From the IMG/VR virus record IMGVR_UViG_3300021368_001292, positions 1-33,195 of that record: 33,195 nucleotides of DNA, one strand, 5' to 3'. Positions 7,282 through 29,227 of this stretch are shown piece after piece. The DNA comes from a virus. Below the pieces are notes generated by a model that was not told the origin of the DNA, ran no database searches, and was given only the letters and a program-made list of their open reading frames with translations. Each line of letters starts with the position of its first letter. The stretch's first letter is position 1. The position numbers and the translations under genes are program-made.

Positions 7282-9315
7282 TTAACCTCCTACCTCACTA
7301 AACTCAACGCCAGTTCTTACGGCGATGAAGTTAAGTGTAATAAAGTTGATAGAACGTGCAGGCTTGATGAAGATGTCACCAACAAATTCGTTTCTGTCGA
7401 TTACTTCACCTGTGTTGTTAGATTCATCACAGACAACTGAGAAGTCTGTAATACCTCTACGACCTTGCACATCTCTTAGGAAAGGTTCAACCAAGTTCTT
7501 GAACTGTGCTCTTGTGAACTCATCGTTGAATTCAAACAGTTGGAACTTAGCGGCAGTCGCAATTGCCTTTTCAAGAACAAGGAACAGTCTACGAACATTG
7601 ATTCTGTCAAATGCAGAAGGTCTTGAAAGTGCTGTCTTGTCACCGAAAAGAAGTGTACCCTCGCCTGGCTCAGAAATAACAGGGTTAATTCTAGCAGGAT
7701 AGAGAATATCTCTTTGTGACTTATTTGGGTTGTAGGCAAGTTTTACTGAACCACGAATCTGTCCTCTGTTGTAACCAGCAGGTGAGAACCATGCGTCTGC
7801 AACAAGGTCAGTGTTCGCACAAAGTCCAGCGACATCACCGTTCAAAGGAACGTATCTATAGACATCGTTGTACTTGTCGTACATATACTTGTAACCACTA
7901 TCAAAGACTGCATAAGACGAACTTGCTAGTTGGTCAAAGAAATCTTTGATGTTGTTTGTTTGTGTGATAGATGATGGGATACCCACAACATCTGTTCTTG
8001 TTGGTGAAATGAAACCTACGCAATCTTTTCTCGCCTCACAGAGGTCGATGATGTTAGTTGCGTGTGTTACACCGTCTGCACCAGAAGCACCGATTTCAGT
8101 CGAACCAGCCATAACTAGGTTTACGTCAACAGTCGCTGTATCTGCAAACAAAGTATATGCAGTGTCCAGTTCACCTACTGTTGGAGTAGATGCTGAACCA
8201 GAACTACCACCAGTAAGTAGACTGTTGATAATACCTGCTTTACCTGTACCAGATGCGAATGTAGAACTTGAACCAGAAATTGCCTCTGCGGCTGTCTCAC
8301 CGGCATCACTAAGTGATGCATCATGGTCTGCCCATCTTACATATTCTGATTTTGTGTTGACTACGCTTGGGTAGAATGCAGTACCACCTTGTGGTGTCTT
8401 AGCATCTTCTGCCTGTGAAAGGAATGCGAATACCTCAATAACTGCACTTGTTCTACTGCCTGCAAGGTCGCCATCGTAACCAGTGATGTCACCGTTTGTG
8501 TCGAAAACAACAACATGGATTTCATCATTAGTGATGTTCTTACTTGCACCCCAAACAGATGTGCCAGGAGCCGCATCTACTTGGTCGTAGTACTTCCAAC
8601 GTCTGCGAACATCCGTTGCATCTACAAGAGCAGATTTAAGTCCGCCACCGTTAGGATTGTCTAGTTGTCTGATTGTTAGTGTATCATTAGCGATATTAGT
8701 AATTTCATACTGTGAACCGTCTGCTTCTTGGAAGTACACAATGTCACCGACATTGAACAATGCACCACCGTCACCAGCAGAACCACCACCATTATCAATA
8801 GTAACGGTAGTGTCACCAGCGGCAGGTGTTCCCTCAACAACACCCAATGTTCCAGTTGCACCAGTGAATGTTTGTTCATATGCATTTGCGTTTGCACAGA
8901 TAGAAACACCTAGTGCGTTACCTTGAGAGCCAGGGAATCTTGCAATCCACTCGCCCTGTGAAGGACTACCTACACCAGCGTTGTAAATGTTATCGTCATA
9001 GTCAGTATCATTTTTGACTAGGGCGGGCGTACCAACAGCCGCATTGAGCATACCAGCTTTTTCTGCTCGTACTACTCTAAGTGCGTTGCCGTACTGTAGA
9101 AAATTGGCGGCGGTAAACCATGACTCAAAGTTATTATTGTCAGGCTTACCAAAGACTTGTAACAATGTAGTTTCGTTGTTGATTGCAGTAACCTCACCAA
9201 CAGGCCCGATATTAAACTGGCCTGCAATGGCACCGATTGACGTTGCAACAGCAGGAACTACATTGGTCAGATCAATCTCTTTGACGAGTACGCCAGGGGA
9301 TACTTGAAATGCCAT
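7282..9315 (-). CDS. gp18: Contractile tail sheath protein gp18
   Basis: The 677-aa product is close to T4 gp18 (659 aa). The N-terminus has the sheath signature PGVLVKEIDLTNVVPAVATSIGAIAG. The C-terminal third has the conserved core: 'LAYNPNKSQRDILYPARINP', 'GTLLFGDKTALSRPSAFDRINVRRLFLVLEKAI', 'FEFNDEFTRAQFKNLVEPFLRDVQGRRGI' and a terminal strand ending FIAVRTGVEF. The middle, about residues 120-430, is a variable Gly/Ala/Thr-rich exposed region, as in other sheath proteins. Sheath subunits surround the gp19 tube and contract at infection. It has its own late promoter and AGGAG Shine-Dalgarno sequence and heads the block that continues through gp21. Confidence 0.97.
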   Translation of the reverse strand: MAFQVSPGVLVKEIDLTNVVPAVATSIGAIAGQFNIGPVGEVTAINNETTLLQVFGKPDNNNFESWFTAANFLQYGNALRVVRAEKAGMLNAAVGTPALVKNDTDYDDNIYNAGVGSPSQGEWIARFPGSQGNALGVSICANANAYEQTFTGATGTLGVVEGTPAAGDTTVTIDNGGGSAGDGGALFNVGDIVYFQEADGSQYEITNIANDTLTIRQLDNPNGGGLKSALVDATDVRRRWKYYDQVDAAPGTSVWGASKNITNDEIHVVVFDTNGDITGYDGDLAGSRTSAVIEVFAFLSQAEDAKTPQGGTAFYPSVVNTKSEYVRWADHDASLSDAGETAAEAISGSSSTFASGTGKAGIINSLLTGGSSGSASTPTVGELDTAYTLFADTATVDVNLVMAGSTEIGASGADGVTHATNIIDLCEARKDCVGFISPTRTDVVGIPSSITQTNNIKDFFDQLASSSYAVFDSGYKYMYDKYNDVYRYVPLNGDVAGLCANTDLVADAWFSPAGYNRGQIRGSVKLAYNPNKSQRDILYPARINPVISEPGEGTLLFGDKTALSRPSAFDRINVRRLFLVLEKAIATAAKFQLFEFNDEFTRAQFKNLVEPFLRDVQGRRGITDFSVVCDESNNTGEVIDRNEFVGDIFIKPARSINFITLNFIAVRTGVEFSEVGG

Positions 9316-9367
9316 CTTTGTTTCTCCTTATGGATTCATTATTATAAAGTTTCCAAACTTACATCAA

Positions 9368-9375
9368 TATTTATA
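9368..9375 (-). promoter_or_regulatory. T4-type late promoter box before gp18
   Basis: The minus strand reads TATAAATA 53 bases upstream of the gp18 ATG, in the divergent gap shared with the plus-strand HNH-like gene. Confidence 0.85.
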
Positions 9376-9416
9376 AAAACACTTACCTTCAGACTGATTT
9401 TTATAGACCCTTTGCA

Positions 9417-9424
9417 CATAAATA
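9417..9424 (+). promoter_or_regulatory. Possible late-type box before the plus-strand gene
   Basis: The plus strand reads CATAAATA, one mismatch from TATAAATA, ending five bases before the ATG at 9430. By T4 spacing transcription would begin at about the start codon, giving a leaderless or nearly leaderless message. No Shine-Dalgarno sequence is visible there. It may be fortuitous. Confidence 0.3.
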
Positions 9425-9429
9425 ATTCT

Positions 9430-9729
9430 ATGTCAGAACACTATGAAAAGTACAAAGAAACCATAAAAAGGGTTTCTCAACGCAATTACAGGGCCCGTAA
9501 GATATGGGTAAACGAATATCTAAGGGATAAAGTCTGTAATTACTGTGGGGAGTCTGAAACAGCGTGTCTCCAATTTTATCCTCACGAGAGGAAAATACGT
9601 TCTCTTACTAAAAGGAAGGGATTGAACGAACAATCTAGAACTGAGGTAAAAGATTACATCAGTAAATCTAAGGTTGTCTGTGCAAATTGTTACCTAAAAC
9701 TAGAGAACGACATCATTGACATTATGTAG
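9430..9729 (+). CDS. Degenerate HNH-family zinc-binding protein
   Basis: This is the only plus-strand gene. The 99-aa product has a basic N-terminal helix (KYKETIKRVSQRNYRARK) followed by two zinc knuckles, C36-x2-C39 (VCNYCGES) and C84-x2-C87 (VVCANCYLKL). That spacing is typical of small phage HNH endonucleases of the type 'CxxCG...CLxFHH...K...VLCxNCHxKxH'. Here the FHH motif is FYPH and the final NCH is NCY, so key catalytic and metal-binding histidines are changed. It may be an inactivated endonuclease or a zinc-binding DNA protein. I chose the ATG at 9430 because the extension upstream overlaps gp18 and its promoter and is not HNH-like. It converges on gp17 with a 14-base gap. Confidence 0.7.
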   Translation: MSEHYEKYKETIKRVSQRNYRARKIWVNEYLRDKVCNYCGESETACLQFYPHERKIRSLTKRKGLNEQSRTEVKDYISKSKVVCANCYLKLENDIIDIM

Positions 9730-11401: not shown

Positions 11402-14400
11402 CTATCTGCCTCTGGCATATTTCTGAGGATTCTCGGCAAATGCCATATAGATATAACTCTGTGAAGAGTTAGTTGCAGCGGAACTTGACTCATGCTTAAA
11501 TCCAGTACTAAGGAACTGACATGAATGTGTTGTAATTTCACCAGTAACTTGATTCCATGCCAGAGTTGAATCTACATTATTCCACCCTACTTGTTGAGTA
11601 GAAGTTGTTTGTGAAGAACCAACTCTATTATTATCAAACACAGTCCAATCGTAACCAGTACCACCATTAGTATATGACTTAACCATAACAAAGGCAGGTT
11701 TGAAGCCACAGTTTACATATGCTCCGTTACCACCGTTATTGTTACCAACATATTTTCCTATAGAACAATATCCATCAACGTCATGCCAACAATAAGCGAC
11801 ATATTCTTTTCCACTTTGATTTGTCAAGCCTGAATATGCACCAGAACCTTGAACTCCTATTACACTATCACTCATAGTTGCCAAATTCCAACGATGTCCA
11901 CTATTAGTATTAGACAGGAACACAGCAGGTTGATTTAGTCTCATATCATCATTATTTCGTGTTACAACATCTTCATGGAAAACAGTCCAATGAGCCTGAT
12001 CAGTCAAATTTTTAACAAAAATCATTACTGGTTTTTTGGTCAATCCATGTGCTATCGTTGCATCTGATTGTGTGCCAGTATATCTAATAATACTAAATCC
12101 AGACTTAGTGTTTGCAGAAAGTTTAGTTGCTGCAGTTGTACCAGCAAGTGCGGCCGTAGACGCAACTCCATCAATCATAACAGAACCAGATGTTGGTACA
12201 TTACCGGCACCGGCAGAGTTGGATGCAGTTGGTTCGCCACCGGCTTTCCAACACCATGCAATATAAGGTTCACCAGTAAGATTAGTATCTCCACCAGTTC
12301 CATGAACAGTAAATCCATTCGTATCAAATGATGTCAAATTATTTACAGTTGGAGTTGCCAAGGCACCGTCAGTGACACTAAGTAGATAATTACTACCAGT
12401 CGCCCCAGGCGTATGTGGGCCTCCATAATTCAATGAATCATATAGTCTATGTTGATTATTGTTATCTCTTCTTTTTATCCATACAAAATCAGGCCTGAAA
12501 CCAATTGTCCTTGCATTGGTTGATGAATTTCCAGTATACAGATGATTTTCAAAGAAATCTTCTGGACGAACATCTTCAACAACAGAAATTGGATCTGGAA
12601 GATTTCTTGAACACATCGAAAGATGACCAGAAGGAACTGCATACTTAAATGCACCAAAGCCGTTTGCATCAGCATTCGTACCTGCTGGACTTTCTCTACC
12701 ATTGAAAGTACCATCTTGTCCAAAATTGACAACATGAGTGACACCAGTGCTCGTTGAACTTCTTCTATCAAATGCAATATAATATGGGCCTGGAATTGTA
12801 AATGCGTTAAACTCTGCAACCTTTGTATTATTTCGGTATACTTCCATTGTACCAGTATCACCATCCCAACGATTAGCAAAAACATCACCGTCAGCAGATG
12901 CATTAACACTGGTACTATCGTAAGAAACTTGAGTACAATTTACAGCTGCTGAGGAGGTGGTAGGATATAATGTGTACACTGTATTCGTACCAGTTGTAGC
13001 ACCTCTGTTCGTAGTATCATTCACTACATAGGAAGCGTAATTATCCGATTGAATTCTCCACTCCCAATACCACTTTCCAGTAGTTGGAAGTGTCGTATTT
13101 ACCATTTTTGTGGTTGTATCAGAAACCGCCCATATTCTACTTCTTCCAGTAATATTTGTTCTACCAGTTTCAGAAGGCATCATATCAAGGTGTGGGAAAC
13201 TGTTTGTAGGAGTATCCTCTAGTTGATGCTGGGCCTGAAGACCACTACTAGTAAAATGATTACCGTTTCCAGAGACATCTTTACCTAAGTCAGAACTATC
13301 TGCAAAGTCTAGATAAAATCCACAATTGCCATATGTTCCAGTATATTGTTTAGGCACCCACACGCCATTATAAAACTCACCAAAATCTGTAGCGTTCAAG
13401 GTTTGTCCATCAACCATTTGAACCTCAGCAATTGTCATCCTACTATAGTAAGTATTAGTAGAATTAGTATTATGGCGTCCAATACGCATTTTTGCGTTTG
13501 GGCCGTTAAACCATTCGTAATGAGTAAAACCAGTTCCACTAGTTGCTAAAACACCAGATTGCCAATTATCGTACACAACTCCATTTACATATGCAGTAAC
13601 CTTGGCCGTACCAGAATTGCCCCAAGCATATGCAACAACTAAGTGATACCATGCATTTGTATCTTCAAACGGTTTATTACTAGTTAATTCAAGAGTATCA
13701 GTGCCATTAGAACTTCTTGTTCTTATGTCCAAATAACATTGGTTACTTAATCCAATTCTATTAAAGGAAGAAGCACCTGTGTTACAACCGAAAATGTGTG
13801 CATGGATGGACTCATCTGCTCTATCTGGCTTTTTTATCCATGCAGAAAATGTTACATTTTGAGTGTCTGTCGCAGTGGGCCAACCATTTTTTTCTAAATA
13901 GTGACTTGACCCATTAAATTCAAGTGAGTGTGGAATATTATAGGCGTTTACTGGCCTAAGAACCTGTAAACTAAACTGACGAGTATTTGTCTGACTTTCA
14001 TCATCTGTTGCAGTAACAGTAAAGTTTGATGTGGTTGTAGACGTTGGAGCAGTTGGTGTTCCAGTAATCTGTCCACTTGCACCTGCTAAAGAAAGGCCTG
14101 TTGGAAGAGCATTTTGAGTAATTGAATATGCAACTGTTCCGCCATCTGTTTCTGCCGCAACAATAGTAATTGTTGACATTGGAACTCCACCTTCAACACT
14201 ACCTAAAGAACCAGCTGCAGTAGAAAACGCAGGCGCACCATTGAAAGAAATACCATTAGTTAAAGTTGCAGCGAGTCCGTTTGAGTTTGTAAATACAATA
14301 TCATAGTCACCGGCAGTTTTTGCTGGTGTTGTGAATCTTACTGTGGTTGAATCAACGAATATTGTTGATGCGGCTGCTGTTCCACCAACAGTTATAGTAA

Positions 14401-14728
14401 ATCCTGCCTGATAGTTTGAACCAGTAAGGGTAATAGTTTCCCCACCGGCAGGGTCAGTTGCAGTGTTAGAACCACTGTATGAAAGTGAATTGATAATAGG
14501 TGGACTATCAATTGCGACCCAATTGTTTGCGTTTGTGCTATATTGTTCTAGTGTTCCTAAGTCAGTATTGAATCTAAGTTGTCCGGCCACAGGATTAGAT
14601 GGTCGTTGTGCAGTTGTTCCATGTGGCACACGAACAAACTGTCCGTCAAAGTCCAAGTCGTGGGCAAGTTTGGCAGAGGTAACACTGTCCTCACCAATTG
14701 CAGTCTGTCTAATTCGTGTCAATGGCAT
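11402..14728 (-). CDS. 1108-aa multidomain adhesin/tail fibre protein, between the terminase genes
   Basis: Domains can be read in order. Residues 1-75 are an attachment-like N-terminus (FVRVPHGTTAQRPSNP, GQLRFNTDLGTLEQ). Residues 76-165 resemble an IPT/TIG Ig fold (GGETITLTGSNY). Residues 167-258 resemble a He_PIG Ig domain (YSITQNALPTGLSL, GQITGTPT, FTVTATDD). Residues 262-480 resemble a LamG/concanavalin-type lectin (HSLEFNGSSHYLE, 'AKMRIGRHN'). Residues 548-675 resemble SPRY (GKWYWEWRI, 'VVNFGQDGTF'). From about 730 on is a DUF7483-like part (IGFRPDFVWIKRR, 'YVAYCWHDVDG'). This fits a surface protein that binds carbohydrate or a receptor. It is a paralogue of the 26060-29227 gene. It begins three bases after gp16, with an AGGGA Shine-Dalgarno sequence in the gp16 end, and separates gp16 from gp17. 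Confidence 0.85.
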   Translation of the reverse strand: MPLTRIRQTAIGEDSVTSAKLAHDLDFDGQFVRVPHGTTAQRPSNPVAGQLRFNTDLGTLEQYSTNANNWVAIDSPPIINSLSYSGSNTATDPAGGETITLTGSNYQAGFTITVGGTAAASTIFVDSTTVRFTTPAKTAGDYDIVFTNSNGLAATLTNGISFNGAPAFSTAAGSLGSVEGGVPMSTITIVAAETDGGTVAYSITQNALPTGLSLAGASGQITGTPTAPTSTTTSNFTVTATDDESQTNTRQFSLQVLRPVNAYNIPHSLEFNGSSHYLEKNGWPTATDTQNVTFSAWIKKPDRADESIHAHIFGCNTGASSFNRIGLSNQCYLDIRTRSSNGTDTLELTSNKPFEDTNAWYHLVVAYAWGNSGTAKVTAYVNGVVYDNWQSGVLATSGTGFTHYEWFNGPNAKMRIGRHNTNSTNTYYSRMTIAEVQMVDGQTLNATDFGEFYNGVWVPKQYTGTYGNCGFYLDFADSSDLGKDVSGNGNHFTSSGLQAQHQLEDTPTNSFPHLDMMPSETGRTNITGRSRIWAVSDTTTKMVNTTLPTTGKWYWEWRIQSDNYASYVVNDTTNRGATTGTNTVYTLYPTTSSAAVNCTQVSYDSTSVNASADGDVFANRWDGDTGTMEVYRNNTKVAEFNAFTIPGPYYIAFDRRSSTSTGVTHVVNFGQDGTFNGRESPAGTNADANGFGAFKYAVPSGHLSMCSRNLPDPISVVEDVRPEDFFENHLYTGNSSTNARTIGFRPDFVWIKRRDNNNQHRLYDSLNYGGPHTPGATGSNYLLSVTDGALATPTVNNLTSFDTNGFTVHGTGGDTNLTGEPYIAWCWKAGGEPTASNSAGAGNVPTSGSVMIDGVASTAALAGTTAATKLSANTKSGFSIIRYTGTQSDATIAHGLTKKPVMIFVKNLTDQAHWTVFHEDVVTRNNDDMRLNQPAVFLSNTNSGHRWNLATMSDSVIGVQGSGAYSGLTNQSGKEYVAYCWHDVDGYCSIGKYVGNNNGGNGAYVNCGFKPAFVMVKSYTNGGTGYDWTVFDNNRVGSSQTTSTQQVGWNNVDSTLAWNQVTGEITTHSCQFLSTGFKHESSSAATNSSQSYIYMAFAENPQKYARGR

Positions 14729-15557: not shown

Positions 15558-16094
15558 CTAAACTGCGTGAAGCAATCCGCCCCTAAACCAAGTGTGAAAA
15601 CCATTGGCATTAATTGTATTACTAGTTGCCCCACTTAAATATACATGAACAGTAACTTGATCATTTGCTGCTAATTTAACGTGCCAATTACCATTCAACA
15701 TAGTGCTTGGTTGACCTAAGTTAGCACGATCACCCCTTAGTAATCTGGTGCCGTTAATATACAACCAAAGGTGAGATGTAGAACTAGTACTATATACACA
15801 AGTATCAAAGAAATATATACCAGCCATAGGTGCTATAAATTTACCGATATTACCACCACTGGTATGCATATGCCCACCGTCATTTGTATCTTCTCTGTTC
15901 CATTGAATGTAAACACTGCCATCAGTAGTGTTACTATTATACCCAGTGATATTAGCACTTATGTCACACACAAAAAATGGTGGTGTAGTTAGTTTAATAT
16001 TATTTGTAGCAAATGTTACATTACCACCACTATCAACAGTCGCCGCACTAGTACCACTTGCGTTTGCAATTGTGTTTACATTTATCTGACTCAT
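15558..16094 (-). CDS. Small fibre protein with C1q/TNF-like domain
   Basis: The 178-aa product has a short N-terminus MSQINVNTIANASGTSAATVD, common in phage fibre subunits, then a C1q-like jelly-roll (about residues 39-178). The signature is 'GKFIAPMAGIYFFDTCVYS', 'HLWLYINGTRLLRG', 'WHVKLAANDQVTVHVYLSG' and a terminal 'FHTWFRGGLL'. C1q domains trimerise and often form receptor-binding tips in phages. The start overlaps the stop of the preceding fibre gene by ATGA, so the pair is coupled. Host receptor binding is inferred, not shown. Confidence 0.7.
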   Translation of the reverse strand: MSQINVNTIANASGTSAATVDSGGNVTFATNNIKLTTPPFFVCDISANITGYNSNTTDGSVYIQWNREDTNDGGHMHTSGGNIGKFIAPMAGIYFFDTCVYSTSSTSHLWLYINGTRLLRGDRANLGQPSTMLNGNWHVKLAANDQVTVHVYLSGATSNTINANGFHTWFRGGLLHAV

Positions 16095-21222: not shown

Positions 21223-23658
21223 TTACCCCAATGCTATCGCAAAGGCCGATACCTGTTGATTTGTTTCTGCTTTAGAGAATACGTCTAATGCAGTTCTCGC
21301 TCCTGCCGCACCACCAGATGTCAAGTCTTGTGGACGATATGGAAGAACCACTGCCTCTGTTGTACTCAAAGCAAATAAGATTGGATTACTGTATCCACTA
21401 GTTGGTTCTGTTGTAACATATGCTCCGGCAGTTGTTGTTGAAACAAAATAATACTGTCCAGCAGTCAAACTAGACAGTGTAATCTTACCAGAGAATGTTG
21501 CAGTAAATGTGTTTGTGTTTGCAACAGCAGACACCACAAACAAACCAAGTGTACCAGTTGCGTTTGCCTGTGCCTTTACATAATTAGTACCATTGTTATA
21601 TATAACGTCACCGACTGCAAGTCCATGTGACGATTGAGTGACACTCCACGACACACTCTCACCACTACCACCACCACCACTTGCATCTGCGAAAGTAAGT
21701 GTTCCAGAACCATCAGTAGTTAGAACTTGGTTCGCAGTACCATCAGCCGTTGGATAAGAAAGTCCATCAAGTACAACCTTACCAGAACCGTTAGGTGTGA
21801 TGTTGATATCTCTGTTAGATGTAGATACGATACTATGAGTAACAACATCTAAGTTACCCCCAAGTTGTGGCGTAGTATCATCTGCAACATTAGCAATACC
21901 AGCGCCAGAAAGTGTACCAACAGATGCAAAGGATAGATTACCAGAACCATCTGTTGTAATAACGTGGTTTGCAGAACCATCAGATGTTGGATAAGAAAGT
22001 CCACTTGCTGTTAGTGAACCATCAACACTAAGTCCAACACCATTTAGAAGTTGTAGTTCATCTGATTTCTGTCTACTGACAATTGTGAAAGAACCACCAC
22101 CCTTAATCGCAGTTTCGATAAGTCCATCTTCTGTTCCCTGTGTTGCATCAGAAATCTTACCAGTAACCTTTGCATAGATTTCATCTCCACCACCATCATG
22201 TCTACCTTTGAATTGAAGTTGTCCAATATAATCACCATCGGCAGGAGAAGAACTATTTCTATAGAGAATAATGTCAGGCCCAGCAGTCGAACCAGCATCA
22301 GTTGATGTGAAAGTTCCTGTACCTGTAATATTGATATTACCTGTACCAGTAATATCCTGTGAGTTTAAGTCTAAATCACCAAGTAACTGAACACCAGTAA
22401 GTTTTGCTGTACTGGTAGTTTTCAGTGTTCCTGTAATCTCTACAGTTTCAGTGATTGTTCCAAACGAACTAGGAACAGCACCAAGTGCAACCTTACCATC
22501 ATCATCGAATCTGTGTCTCTCCGTTCCACCAAAGTTGAAAGTAAGAGATGGTGTGTTTGAATTTATTCTCCATCCTTCAATTCTCGTTTCAGAATCATTG
22601 GTGGTTATTGTTGACGAACCAGCCCTGTTTATAAATCTAAGTCTACCAATTGCACCACCAGTTCCAGTTCTAGAACCAGCTATACCAAAATCTTTTGTCT
22701 CATATGTCTCATCACCAGAGACAATAGTAAGAACATTGGCACCAGAATTGAAATATAAATTACTGGAATAATCTAATCTATTATGAGAACCATTATGGTA
22801 AATAGATAAGTCCGTTCCAGCGCCGAAGTTTAGTCTATCATCAGATGAACTTGCACTGTCACCAAAGTTGATATTCTTTGCATTGACATCAAGGTTGCCT
22901 CCAAGTTGAGGCGTAGTATCCTCTACGACATTGTTGATGGAAACTGCTTGAGCTCTTGCGTCTGTATAGTAAAGATTTGTCGAACCTTCAGATAAATCAT
23001 CTGTGTCCTTAGAACTCAAGTTTAGGTTTGCACCTGTCTGTAGATTCACTCGTGCGTCTGCTCGTGCGTTAGTGAAGTAAAGGTTAGAACCCTCTGTCAA
23101 GTCGCCAGTATCGAATGCAGTCAGATTGCTTGTATTGACAAATGCAGCCCAACCCATAAGTCCATGTGCAGAACATTGATAGTGAAGAATAGAAGGAGTC
23201 GAGTGTGATACAACAATCTCTGTGTAAGCACCAGAAGAACCAGCCGTACCGTTAGTTGTCACGCCTGTTGTATAAGCAGTATTCTTGTTTTCATCTAAAT
23301 AGAATCTAAACGGATGTCCAGAGTTACTTGAGTCGCTCTGATCGAAGCGATAGGTGATGCCAGGAATAAGTCTTAGGAATGGTGAGAATGTACCATTGAT
23401 TTTATACTTGTTACTAGAACCACTACCATGATGAACATGAGCAGAAGTAGAGGATGCAACAGTTACATAAAATGTTTTGGTGGAAGGTTCAAAATCAGTC
23501 GTATAGTGACTACCGACAGTAACAATATTGTTACTACCGTCACGCATGAACATCTTACCGTCATAGGTGTTGACAGCAAATTCGCCCTCTGCTAGATCCG
23601 AAGTAGTTGGGATACTAGAATGGGTATGCGACCTTTTTAGTTTTATATCCACAGCCAT
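21223..23658 (-). CDS. 811-aa tail fibre with a cupredoxin-like domain
   Basis: The N-terminus (MAVDIKLKRSHTHSSIPTTSDLAEGEFAVNTYDGKMFMRDG) is a phage attachment-type domain. Residues 61-177 resemble a cupredoxin: 'PFLRLIPGITYRFDQSDSSNSGHPFRFY', then 'AYTEIVVSHSTPSILHYQCSAHGLMGWAAF'. His115, Cys162, His165 and Met168 give the C-x2-H-x2-M spacing of amicyanin-type copper sites. After this come repeats 'NLYFTNARADARV' and 'NLYYTDARAQAV', PQLGGNLD modules, a shaft with 'SYPTxDGxANxVxTTDGSGxLxFA' twice (about 555-579 and 633-658), and a C-terminal domain (SWSVTQSSHGLAVGDVIYNNG). Metal binding is inferred from ligand spacing alone. AGGAG lies before the ATG. Confidence 0.75.
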   Translation of the reverse strand: MAVDIKLKRSHTHSSIPTTSDLAEGEFAVNTYDGKMFMRDGSNNIVTVGSHYTTDFEPSTKTFYVTVASSTSAHVHHGSGSSNKYKINGTFSPFLRLIPGITYRFDQSDSSNSGHPFRFYLDENKNTAYTTGVTTNGTAGSSGAYTEIVVSHSTPSILHYQCSAHGLMGWAAFVNTSNLTAFDTGDLTEGSNLYFTNARADARVNLQTGANLNLSSKDTDDLSEGSTNLYYTDARAQAVSINNVVEDTTPQLGGNLDVNAKNINFGDSASSSDDRLNFGAGTDLSIYHNGSHNRLDYSSNLYFNSGANVLTIVSGDETYETKDFGIAGSRTGTGGAIGRLRFINRAGSSTITTNDSETRIEGWRINSNTPSLTFNFGGTERHRFDDDGKVALGAVPSSFGTITETVEITGTLKTTSTAKLTGVQLLGDLDLNSQDITGTGNINITGTGTFTSTDAGSTAGPDIILYRNSSSPADGDYIGQLQFKGRHDGGGDEIYAKVTGKISDATQGTEDGLIETAIKGGGSFTIVSRQKSDELQLLNGVGLSVDGSLTASGLSYPTSDGSANHVITTDGSGNLSFASVGTLSGAGIANVADDTTPQLGGNLDVVTHSIVSTSNRDINITPNGSGKVVLDGLSYPTADGTANQVLTTDGSGTLTFADASGGGGSGESVSWSVTQSSHGLAVGDVIYNNGTNYVKAQANATGTLGLFVVSAVANTNTFTATFSGKITLSSLTAGQYYFVSTTTAGAYVTTEPTSGYSNPILFALSTTEAVVLPYRPQDLTSGGAAGARTALDVFSKAETNQQVSAFAIALG
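21847..21882 (-). repeat. PQLGGNLD-type coding repeat in the 811-aa fibre
   Basis: Codes for DDTTPQLGGNLD-like residues 593-604 of the 811-aa protein. It closely resembles 22867-22920 and the copies in the adjacent fibre gene. Confidence 0.65.
22333..22380 (-). repeat. Partial PQLGGNLD-type repeat (GDLDLNSQDITGTGNI)
   Basis: Codes for residues 427-442 of the 811-aa fibre. It keeps only the second half of the module, LDLNSxDITGTGNI, as in copies A and B of the neighbouring gene. Confidence 0.55.
22867..22920 (-). repeat. PQLGGNLD-type coding repeat in the 811-aa fibre
   Basis: Codes for residues 247-264 of the 811-aa protein (DTTPQLGGNLDVNAKNI). It follows the 'NLYYTDARA' fibre motif. Confidence 0.65.
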
Positions 23659-26059: not shown

Positions 26060-29000
26060 TTATCTACCTTCAGCGTACTTATACGAATCTTCGGCAAACG
26101 CCATAAACATATAATTGTGGCCACTAGTGTTATAAACATCACCTGTTCTCAATAATCTAAATCCATTTCCATAGAAATCAAGAGTTTGGTTAGCACCACT
26201 TCCTTCACCGCCGACAGCTTGAGCTTCTAATTCTGCACCATCTAGAATAGGGTTCTTTTGAACATTAGTTGCACCTGCTCCATCAGACCTTCTATTATCG
26301 TACATTACCCATCTATTGACACTTGAAAGAGTTTTTATGATAACAAAGGCGGGCTTGAACCCACAATAGACAAAAGGCCCATTACTTGACTGGCCAGTGC
26401 CTACATAAGTTCCAATTTTACTGAAGCCAGGAACGGAATGCCAGCAATATGCAACATATTCATCACCATTAGAACCAACTTCATTATCTGTTGTACTGGC
26501 ACCGATACTGAAAACAGTATTTGTTGGTCTGGTGGAGTTCCATCTTTGATTTACAGGAGAGGACGCAGTACTAGTGGCATTTATTCTTAGATGTTCTGTT
26601 GCGGCAATTTCACTACTATAAACACACCAGTTTTCAGCGTCTGTTCTGTTTTTAATCCATATCATTTCTGGAGCTGAGTTCAATCCATGTGCAATTGTTT
26701 TTGCTCCATTACCCTCGCCAGTATATGTTACAACACTGAATCCAGACTTGGTATTCGCAGTGATTTTATCTGCGGCAAGTGTTCCAGCAAGTGCATCTGT
26801 TTTATTTGCACCGTCAATTTTTACTGAACCAGCAGTTGGAACTGCACCTACACCAGCAGAGTTTGTTGCAGTTGGAGCGCCACCTGCCTTGAAACACCAA
26901 CCGGCAACCTTATTACCATTTTCGTTTACAACACCAGATGTACCAAGTGTAAATCCATCTGAATCAAAACTTGTAACTTCATCTCTGACTAAATCTTCTG
27001 GTGGTGGTGAACCATTTGTACTAAGTCTCTGTGTTACTCCTCGTGCAGTATCAAACAACGCATGAGATGACATAGTTCCACTACCACCACGCTCTTTCAG
27101 CCAAATAAAGTCTGGTTGAAAACCCACACCAGTAATAGATTGAATAGAGCCTGTGCCGTTATATTGCACACAAGCAAAGTTCTTTTCTGGTTGATTGCCT
27201 TGGGCAGTGTTCAAAGGTGACTCTGAAAGGTTTTTGGAACAAAGCGCCAGATGTCCTGTTGGGGGCGCATAGAAAAATTTGCCTGGGCCAGTGGAAGGGG
27301 ATGCATCAGCACCACCAGTTTTGTAACCAGCGAAAGTCATGTCCTGTCCAAAGTTTACAACTTCTTCTTCAGAGGTTGTTCCTTTGACAAAAGGAATATA
27401 ATCGTTTGAATCAATTCCTGTCGTAGTTGACTGTAATGTACCGTTTTTATACCATTTAATTGTACCGGCATCTAAATCAAATGCACAACCAATAACATCA
27501 CCAGTAGTATAAGTTGCACCAGAACCATCATTAGTTCCACTGGCAGCAGAAATAGCGCCTGTCATCCGATAACCATGATAGTGTTGTCCAGAAGAGTTTA
27601 TATCTCCCTGTGTTCCAATACCAATATTAATATTACTGCTTGCTGCCTTTATCCAAACTTCAAAGTACCACTTACCACTACTGACTTCATGTGTTCCAAT
27701 ACCAAATGTTTGGTTTCCACTAGCGTTAGGATGAGACAGTCTTGTATTTCCATCATAGTATGATATAGGCTGAGTTGCAACATCTCTTCTAATCGCCAGT
27801 GAATTAAAGGCACACATATTGATTGTTGGGGAGTCTAATTTTTTATGGTTTTCTTGAATTCCACCAAGTACATAATCATTATTATTTCCAGAGGTATCAT
27901 TACCCAAATCACTAGCATCAGCGAACTCTAATCTTACACTACTGCCAGGGTATGTTCCGGCGTATGCGATAGGTGTCCATACACCATTGTATTCTGTTGC
28001 GAAATCTGTTGGCGATTTTGCCAGTCCATCAATAAAGTGATAGTCTGCCATGTAACCATCGTAATAATAACCACCATTGCCACTGCTATAATAACGTCCG
28101 ATATGAGTTGCATTTGTAGTTGTTTGAAGTGCAACACCAGTGGAGGCGTTATAAATTTGATTTCCATTTATCCAAACGGTTACTGTACCAGCATTATTTT
28201 GAAACACAACGTGCATCCATGTTCCAACATCCCTCAACATTCTAGATGCAGAAAGTTGAGAACCGTTGTAATAGTAAAATTTTGAATCTGTCAGGCCAGT
28301 CCAAAAACCAAAGCCTCTGTTACCATTACTCCAAAGATACTCATAGTCATCAAACCTTCCAGATCTTTTTACCCACATTGAAACTGTATATGTTGTCGAT
28401 GCAGTGGCGGTTGTTCCTACCACGGCAGAAGCAGAACCATCAAATACCAAACTTTGATTGATTTGTGTAACATAAACTGGACGTAGAACTGCTAAACTAA
28501 ATGCACGAGAGTTTGTTTGTCCTTCATCATCAGTTGCAGTCACAGTAAAATTCGATGTAGTTGTGGAAGATACAGATGTTGGTGTTCCTGTGATCTGTCC
28601 ATTTGCACTTCCCAAAGAAAGTCCAGCTGGAAGAGCATTCTGAGTAATTGAATATGCAAGTGTTCCACCGTCTGGCTCTGCCGCAACAATAGTAATCGTT
28701 GACATCGCAACATCAGATTCGATAGTTCCTAAAGAACCAGCTGCAGTTGTAAAGGCAGGCAAACCATTGACTGAAATACCATTAGTTAGAGTTGCGGCAA
28801 GTCCATTTGAGTTTGTAAACGTAACATCATGGTCACCAGCAGTTTTTACTGGTGTTGTGAATCTTACCGTAGTTGTATTAACAAATGTTGTTGATGCCGC
28901 TGCTGTTCCACCAACATCAATAGTAAATCCATCCTTAAAGTTTGAACCTGTAAGAGTAATTATTTCTCCACCAGCAGGATCGGTTGCAGTGTTAGAACCA

Positions 29001-29227
29001 CTATAGGATAGTGAACTAATAATTGGTGGACTGTCGATTGCAGCCCAGTTGTTTGTGTTTGTGTTCCACTGTTCTAGAGTACCTAGTGTGGTATTGAACC
29101 TCATGTAACCAGCGGCAGGGTTAGATGGACGCTGTGCAGTAGTGCCGTGAGGTACACGAACATACTGTCCGTCAAGATCTACATTTTCTTTACTTTGATT
29201 GTCTAGAACAATTTTTGAAATTGGCAT
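26060..29227 (-). CDS. 1055-aa multidomain adhesin/tail fibre protein
   Basis: The N-terminal 260 residues closely match the 11402-14728 protein: attachment segment (QYVRVPHGTTAQRPSNP), IPT/TIG-like domain (GGEIITLTGSNF), He_PIG-type domain (YSITQNALPAGLSLGSANGQITGTPT). Then come a LamG-like lectin region (QSLVFDGSASAVVG, 'STTYTVSMWVKRSG', 'WMHVVFQNNAGTVTVWING'), an SPRY-like region (SSGKWYFEVWIK, 'VVNFGQDMTF') and a DUF7483-like C-terminus ('GFQPDFIWLKERGG', 'YVAYCWHSVPG', ending MFMAFAEDSYKYAEGR). It is likely an adhesin with several sugar- or protein-binding modules. AGGA lies upstream and a variant late box lies 22 bases before the ATG. Confidence 0.85.
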   Translation of the reverse strand: MPISKIVLDNQSKENVDLDGQYVRVPHGTTAQRPSNPAAGYMRFNTTLGTLEQWNTNTNNWAAIDSPPIISSLSYSGSNTATDPAGGEIITLTGSNFKDGFTIDVGGTAAASTTFVNTTTVRFTTPVKTAGDHDVTFTNSNGLAATLTNGISVNGLPAFTTAAGSLGTIESDVAMSTITIVAAEPDGGTLAYSITQNALPAGLSLGSANGQITGTPTSVSSTTTSNFTVTATDDEGQTNSRAFSLAVLRPVYVTQINQSLVFDGSASAVVGTTATASTTYTVSMWVKRSGRFDDYEYLWSNGNRGFGFWTGLTDSKFYYYNGSQLSASRMLRDVGTWMHVVFQNNAGTVTVWINGNQIYNASTGVALQTTTNATHIGRYYSSGNGGYYYDGYMADYHFIDGLAKSPTDFATEYNGVWTPIAYAGTYPGSSVRLEFADASDLGNDTSGNNNDYVLGGIQENHKKLDSPTINMCAFNSLAIRRDVATQPISYYDGNTRLSHPNASGNQTFGIGTHEVSSGKWYFEVWIKAASSNINIGIGTQGDINSSGQHYHGYRMTGAISAASGTNDGSGATYTTGDVIGCAFDLDAGTIKWYKNGTLQSTTTGIDSNDYIPFVKGTTSEEEVVNFGQDMTFAGYKTGGADASPSTGPGKFFYAPPTGHLALCSKNLSESPLNTAQGNQPEKNFACVQYNGTGSIQSITGVGFQPDFIWLKERGGSGTMSSHALFDTARGVTQRLSTNGSPPPEDLVRDEVTSFDSDGFTLGTSGVVNENGNKVAGWCFKAGGAPTATNSAGVGAVPTAGSVKIDGANKTDALAGTLAADKITANTKSGFSVVTYTGEGNGAKTIAHGLNSAPEMIWIKNRTDAENWCVYSSEIAATEHLRINATSTASSPVNQRWNSTRPTNTVFSIGASTTDNEVGSNGDEYVAYCWHSVPGFSKIGTYVGTGQSSNGPFVYCGFKPAFVIIKTLSSVNRWVMYDNRRSDGAGATNVQKNPILDGAELEAQAVGGEGSGANQTLDFYGNGFRLLRTGDVYNTSGHNYMFMAFAEDSYKYAEGR

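Follow-up and report, generated by a model that had tools for sequence, protein, structure and literature searches.

The virion-proximal part of an 811-residue tail fibre protein from a marine T4-like myovirus contains a cupredoxin-fold domain in which the set of type 1 copper ligands is complete and conserved. The gene belongs to the window analyzed here, a 33,195-base virus contig from IMG/VR. We estimate at about one in two the probability that this domain, a member of a marine-phage family of cupredoxins with intact type 1 ligands, binds one copper ion and serves as a rigid structural module next to the virion; the function is predicted. A preliminary description of the same DNA had pointed to a cupredoxin-like domain with all four type 1 ligands at 23128-23478 (codons 61-177 of the minus-strand ORF 21223-23658), and this assignment is now backed by the predicted fold, the fold search, the register of the ligands and their conservation. 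The four residues that it named, His115, Cys162, His165 and Met168, are all present at these positions of the fibre. The coordinates of the features are given in Table 1.

Table 1. Features of the fibre gene and the cupredoxin-fold domain (positions in the window)
Feature	Position	Strand	Basis or remark
Tail fibre protein with the domain, 811 aa	21223..23658	-	ORF with ATG start; PHROG phrog_30742 (tail fiber), E 7e-49
N-terminal segment, residues 1-57, probable virion anchor	23488..23658	-	Resembles the N-terminus of the upstream 553-aa fibre
Cupredoxin-fold domain, residues 58-177	23128..23487	-	AlphaFold2, Foldseek and VIA-align
His115 codon, first ligand (SGHPFRF)	23314..23316	-	Aligned with the His of amicyanin PHNVHF
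Cys162 codon, ligand	23173..23175	-	hhalign register and conservation of spacing
His165 codon, ligand	23164..23166	-	hhalign register and conservation of spacing
Met168 codon, axial ligand	23155..23157	-	hhalign register and conservation of spacing
Remaining fibre, residues 178-811, largely mosaic in relatives	21223..23127	-	blastp profile along the protein

The contig carries a T4-like gene set, including the gp23 capsid, gp20 portal and gp18 sheath proteins, UvsY and a T4-type terminase; the terminase shares 87% identity with its counterpart in Methylophilales phage Melnitz and 68% with the one in Pelagibacter phage Mosig. The fibre gene is located in a run with neck and sheath-stabiliser genes, as it is in Melnitz, where the gene order is the same and the counterpart of the fibre gene is annotated as a tail fiber. 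Residues 1-236 of the fibre share 62% identity with this annotated protein, and the remainder is unmatched. Several other genes on the contig deserve mention. An ORF on the opposite strand between the sheath and terminase genes (9304-9729, plus strand; likely start near 9430) encodes two C-x2-C pairs resembling a zinc ribbon, with weak Pfam matches only, and is possibly a mobile gene of the homing type. Two related proteins of 1,108 and 1,055 aa (11402-14728 and 26060-29227, both on the minus strand) match phrog_19943, and the latter contains TIG, Ig-like, LamG, SPRY and DUF7483 domains. A 178-aa protein with a C1q domain (PF00386, E 2e-7) is encoded at 15558-16094 (minus strand) in a run of small fibre-like genes.

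The blastp profile of the fibre against all fetched relatives shows that the block most often common to them as a unit consists of the first about 200-260 residues, and that residues 270-420 are the least shared part of the middle of the protein; the conserved block spans residues 1-205. The N-terminal 52 residues show 37% identity to the next fibre upstream (553 aa; E 3e-7 in a single comparison), which itself has a weak match to Mtd_N that falls below the cut-off (E 0.016). By this resemblance, the N-terminal segment of about 50-57 residues is probably the virion-attaching end. Because the N-terminal block is conserved and the N-terminus is shared with the neighboring fibre, the domain can be placed next to the probable virion anchor and outside the variable part of the protein. 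The earlier placement of the domain near the attachment end thus holds with respect to attachment to the virion, whereas attachment to the host finds no support in the sequence.

The AlphaFold2 model of the domain, built from 34 sequences, has a mean pLDDT of 89.6 (93-98 in the core) and nine strands; the window row of the underlying alignment and the model comprise residues 58-189, and most of the other rows start at the equivalent of residue 52. The Greek-key beta-sandwich of approximately eight strands that defines cupredoxins is found both in this model and in its fold matches in the PDB. In particular, almost all of the best 50 Foldseek matches in the PDB are chains with the cupredoxin or multicopper-oxidase fold, starting with rusticyanin (E 5e-4) and including small laccases, pseudoazurin and nitrite reductases, although the TM-scores are only about 0.4-0.5. 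VIA-align gives a Z-score of 9.6 over 103 residues (rmsd 3.5) with copper nitrite reductase (2dv6) and Z-scores of 8-9 with two-domain laccases. The order of the ligands is also that of cupredoxins, with His115 upstream and Cys162, His165 and Met168 following in the loop that connects the final two strands; in the numbering of the model, His58 precedes strand 60-63, Cys105 ends strand 100-105, and His108 and Met111 precede strand 113-117. From the predicted fold and the alignment register, we infer that the four ligand residues converge on one site. The domain has a mass of approximately 13 kDa, and Cys162 is the sole cysteine among the 811 residues of the fibre. An insertion in the domain contains an HxH motif, HVHH (residues 74-77; 23428-23439, minus strand), that resembles the motifs for which iron binding has been proposed in fibres and is kept only in near relatives.

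By its predicted fold, ligand order and ligand conservation, the domain can be assigned to the cupredoxin superfamily. Its sequence likeness to known cupredoxins is weak, yet the ligand residues are correctly matched. Pfam and NCBIfam searches with the complete fibre produced no match, and neither the fibre nor its domain reaches the curated cut-off of the Copper-bind family (PF00127), which is weakly matched by six of the 34 family members (best E 0.03), the window protein not being among the six. Sequence searches against the PDB gave chance-level matches only, including pseudoazurin (E 0.3-0.9). When amicyanin was compared by hhalign with a profile of 63 full-ligand phage domains, H115, C162, H165 and M168 fell on the four amicyanin ligands, with a probability of 19%, whereas none of ten shuffled sequences exceeded 0.8%. 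Rusticyanin reached 13%, with the His and Cys in register, followed by plastocyanin (7.5%), pseudoazurin (1.8%) and azurin (0.65%); of these five sequences, those of amicyanin (1aac) and rusticyanin were found to agree with the PDB. The phage loop C162-S-A-H165-G-L-M168 conforms to C-x2-H-x2-M, and the amicyanin sequence in 1aac (C-T-P-H-P-F-M) confirms the previous attribution of this spacing to amicyanin.

Five scans of viral contigs, together with 22 annotated phage regions, yielded 376 distinct homologous domains in total. All four ligands (HCHM) are kept in 303 of these, and the exact C-x2-H-x2-M spacing is found in 302 of the 303, so the ligand layout is not a matter of chance. The full-ligand domains contain only 28 further cysteines in 38,631 residues. 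Loss of Cys162 and His165 in most homologs had been named in advance as an observation that would speak against the copper site; both residues are kept in most. Compared with nine close relatives, the domain evolves under purifying selection, with dN/dS of about 0.09-0.17, and the ligand codons show synonymous changes only. In two domains (L161 and L210), the axial Met is replaced by Gln (HCHQ), a substitution also known from stellacyanin-type copper proteins.

Where the ligand set is incomplete, Cys, His and Met have in most cases disappeared jointly. Among 99 clusters at 70% identity, four ligands are kept in 63, three in 2, two in 2, one in 13 and none in 19, a bimodal distribution compared to the 22.8, 40.7, 26.9, 7.7 and 0.8 clusters, respectively, that would be expected if the ligands were independent. 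These cluster counts should not be taken for independent events because, in a tree inferred with the ligand columns removed, ligand loss amounts to 8 changes, only 2 of which are forced by well-supported branches, and such branches offer no more than two independent pairs for comparison; all-or-none loss is accordingly weaker evidence than the raw counts imply. Domains that lack Cys, His and Met retain the fold residues Y103 (29 of 29), F105 (27 of 29) and D109 (28 of 29), and their ligand positions vary freely. A model of the ligand-less copies of the gp7 type still matches rusticyanin, auracyanin and laccases, albeit more weakly. Since the full ligand set is missing from about one fifth of the domains, the fold can do without the metal.

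These observations bear on an explanation in which only the fold matters, such that the domain would be a compact spacer or docking module between baseplate parts, with the four residues conserved because they pack and form hydrogen bonds, and the site free of metal in the virion. Copies that lack the ligands but share the fold signature are indeed common in gp7-like proteins and some fibres, and several sites in the baseplate and fibres contain the domain. However, packing alone would allow single replacements, and yet intermediate ligand states are rare; moreover, the Cys-His-Met-His set is kept at fixed spacing in 302 of 303 domains in which Cys is otherwise nearly absent. We consider a metal-free spacer unlikely, if still to be taken seriously.

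The domain is far more widespread than one fibre. A tblastn search detected relatives in 344 phage records, of which nearly all belong to phages of Synechococcus and Prochlorococcus and a few to phages of Pelagibacter and Methylophilales. Tail fibres and gp7-like baseplate wedges carry the domain, as do gp9-like connectors, in which it lies at the C-terminus and the N-terminal part matches the T4 gp9/gp10 family. Several gp7-like wedges (e.g., in loci L114, L115 and L122) carry tandem domains, one with complete ligands and one ligand-less; the gp7-like protein of L115 also matches the YHYH family of Pfam (PF14240). The domain is also found in small-genome phages of Pelagibacter and Prochlorococcus, and the structure search additionally retrieved giant-virus proteins named merely as beta-sandwich proteins. 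A scan of a cellular genome collection with the window-type profile gave no match, and a plasmid search gave none for the domain. A scan of the same collection with another relative yielded matches in Pelagibacter, SAR86, Flavobacteriaceae and other marine records. Most of the Pelagibacter matches resemble the phage fibre type and may come from phage contigs. The SAR86 match (L378, 5767-6312), encoded among metabolic genes, is 181 aa long, starts like a lipoprotein and contains all four ligands; the Flavobacteriaceae match (L377, 5845-12303) is a secreted-looking protein of more than 2,000 aa in which at least one copy of the domain has the full set. Thus, judging by these sequence matches, the domain is common to phages and marine bacteria, and the secreted-looking bacterial relatives with intact ligands suggest that it also serves outside the cell. 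The statement in the preliminary description that similar segments occur in other marine phage fibres was correct but understated, considering the baseplate wedges, the connectors and the secreted bacterial proteins.

We infer copper binding, the time of loading and the mechanical effect from the computed fold, ligand set, conservation, position and spread of the domain. The phage domain would bind a single copper ion via two His, the Cys and the axial Met in an amicyanin-like loop. The cytoplasm is reducing and contains almost no free copper. Since virions assemble in this copper-poor compartment, the site would be empty during virion assembly and filled after release; copper loading would then lock the beta-sandwich and stabilize a structural joint, the domain most likely acting as a rigid module at the virion-proximal end of the fibre. 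Among the functions initially proposed for the metal center, stabilization, itself putative, is the best. A role in electron transfer was set aside, with no redox partner in sight in the virion. Ligand conservation in the fibre and baseplate relatives points to the presence of copper sites in many marine virions. Extending this, we tentatively envisage, as a rather doubtful generalization, that fibres, gp7-like wedges and gp9-like connectors of marine T4-like and other marine phages harbor a family of type 1 copper sites, amounting to many copper ions per virion, and that in seawater the stability of the virion or the onset of infection is influenced by the copper state of these joints in the baseplate.

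An alternative is that the site natively binds zinc or iron instead of copper. HxH motifs are reported to bind iron in T4 gp37, and the same has been proposed for the fibres of marine phages (PMC11705849), a precedent for another metal in such proteins. However, HxH iron represents a site of another kind, whose geometry requires the axis of a trimer, and both the ligand set and the fold of the phage domain are those of type 1 copper proteins, making a different native metal improbable.

The copper center might instead act in infection, by sensing copper or redox conditions at the host envelope, by binding a copper-bearing surface, or by offering copper to a metal-uptake receptor in the manner of a Trojan horse. 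In T4, gp7, gp9 and the fibres relay host contact, and it is in gp7-like, gp9-like and fibre proteins that the domains are found. The hosts of the relatives are marine Gram-negative bacteria, and the Trojan-horse idea has an iron precedent (PMC11705849). Nevertheless, the domain belongs to the conserved virion-proximal block and not to the variable part that is expected to meet the host, which argues mildly against such a role, and the same domain is present across phages of cyanobacteria, SAR11 and methylotrophs, that is, of different host surfaces. We regard a role in infection as quite unlikely, and the earlier proposals of sensing host metal conditions or binding a copper-bearing surface remain unsupported for a domain that adjoins the virion anchor. 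Finally, a chance arrangement or alignment artefact unrelated to cupredoxins, to which the weak Pfam and PDB sequence matches might point, is contradicted by the confident fold, the fold search and the conservation across hundreds of sequences, and is highly improbable.

If the sites hold copper, as favored here, marine virions would be copper carriers, a role already proposed for them with iron, and the joints of the infection machine of abundant marine phages would contain a metal center. Several hundred entries currently labeled 'hypothetical' or 'tail fiber' would gain a testable biochemical property, for which the ligand-less sister copies within the same proteins are natural controls. 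A search of the open-access literature for cupredoxin in combination with tail fiber, virion, baseplate or cyanophage, and for plastocyanin-like in combination with cyanophage, retrieved no relevant paper. A virion site of the copper type appears to be undescribed within this open-access scope, in which absence is no proof of novelty.

The closest known systems include the PHROGs that contain the domain (phrog_30742, phrog_693, phrog_677, phrog_708 and phrog_32294; tail fibre, gp9-like connector and baseplate wedge), all annotated as virion parts only and none as cupredoxin. Two-domain laccases and copper nitrite reductases give the highest VIA-align Z-scores (8-9.6) and contain tandem copies, as do the phage gp7-like proteins, but in the phage domain neither type 2 nor type 3 copper ligands are seen and there is no enzyme context. 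Rusticyanin (1rcy, 1e30 and others), the top Foldseek match, has a similar context of the first His (GHSF vs. GHPF in the phage domain) but differs in its longer C-x4-H-x4-M loop, in being an acid-stable electron carrier, and in sharing only ~15% identity with the phage domain. Amicyanin and the pseudoazurin/plastocyanin family (PF00127) share with the phage domain the types and order of the ligands and the beta-sandwich class, and amicyanin also has the identical C-x2-H-x2-M spacing. The phage domain is distinguished from this family by the long YRFDQSDSSNSGHPF segment ahead of the first ligand and by the Pro after the first His; a His-Pro context of the type 1 His is found in multicopper oxidases. 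Furthermore, the members of the family are free electron carriers of ~100-125 aa, periplasmic in the case of amicyanin, whereas the phage domain is a module inside a virion protein of 811 aa that is encoded beside neck and sheath genes. The HxH iron sites of T4 gp37 and marine fibres (PMC11705849) are likewise metal sites in phage tail fibres; these sites, however, are octahedral, hold iron, and lie on the trimer axis at the host-facing tip, whereas the phage domain presents a within-chain site of the copper type at the virion-proximal end.
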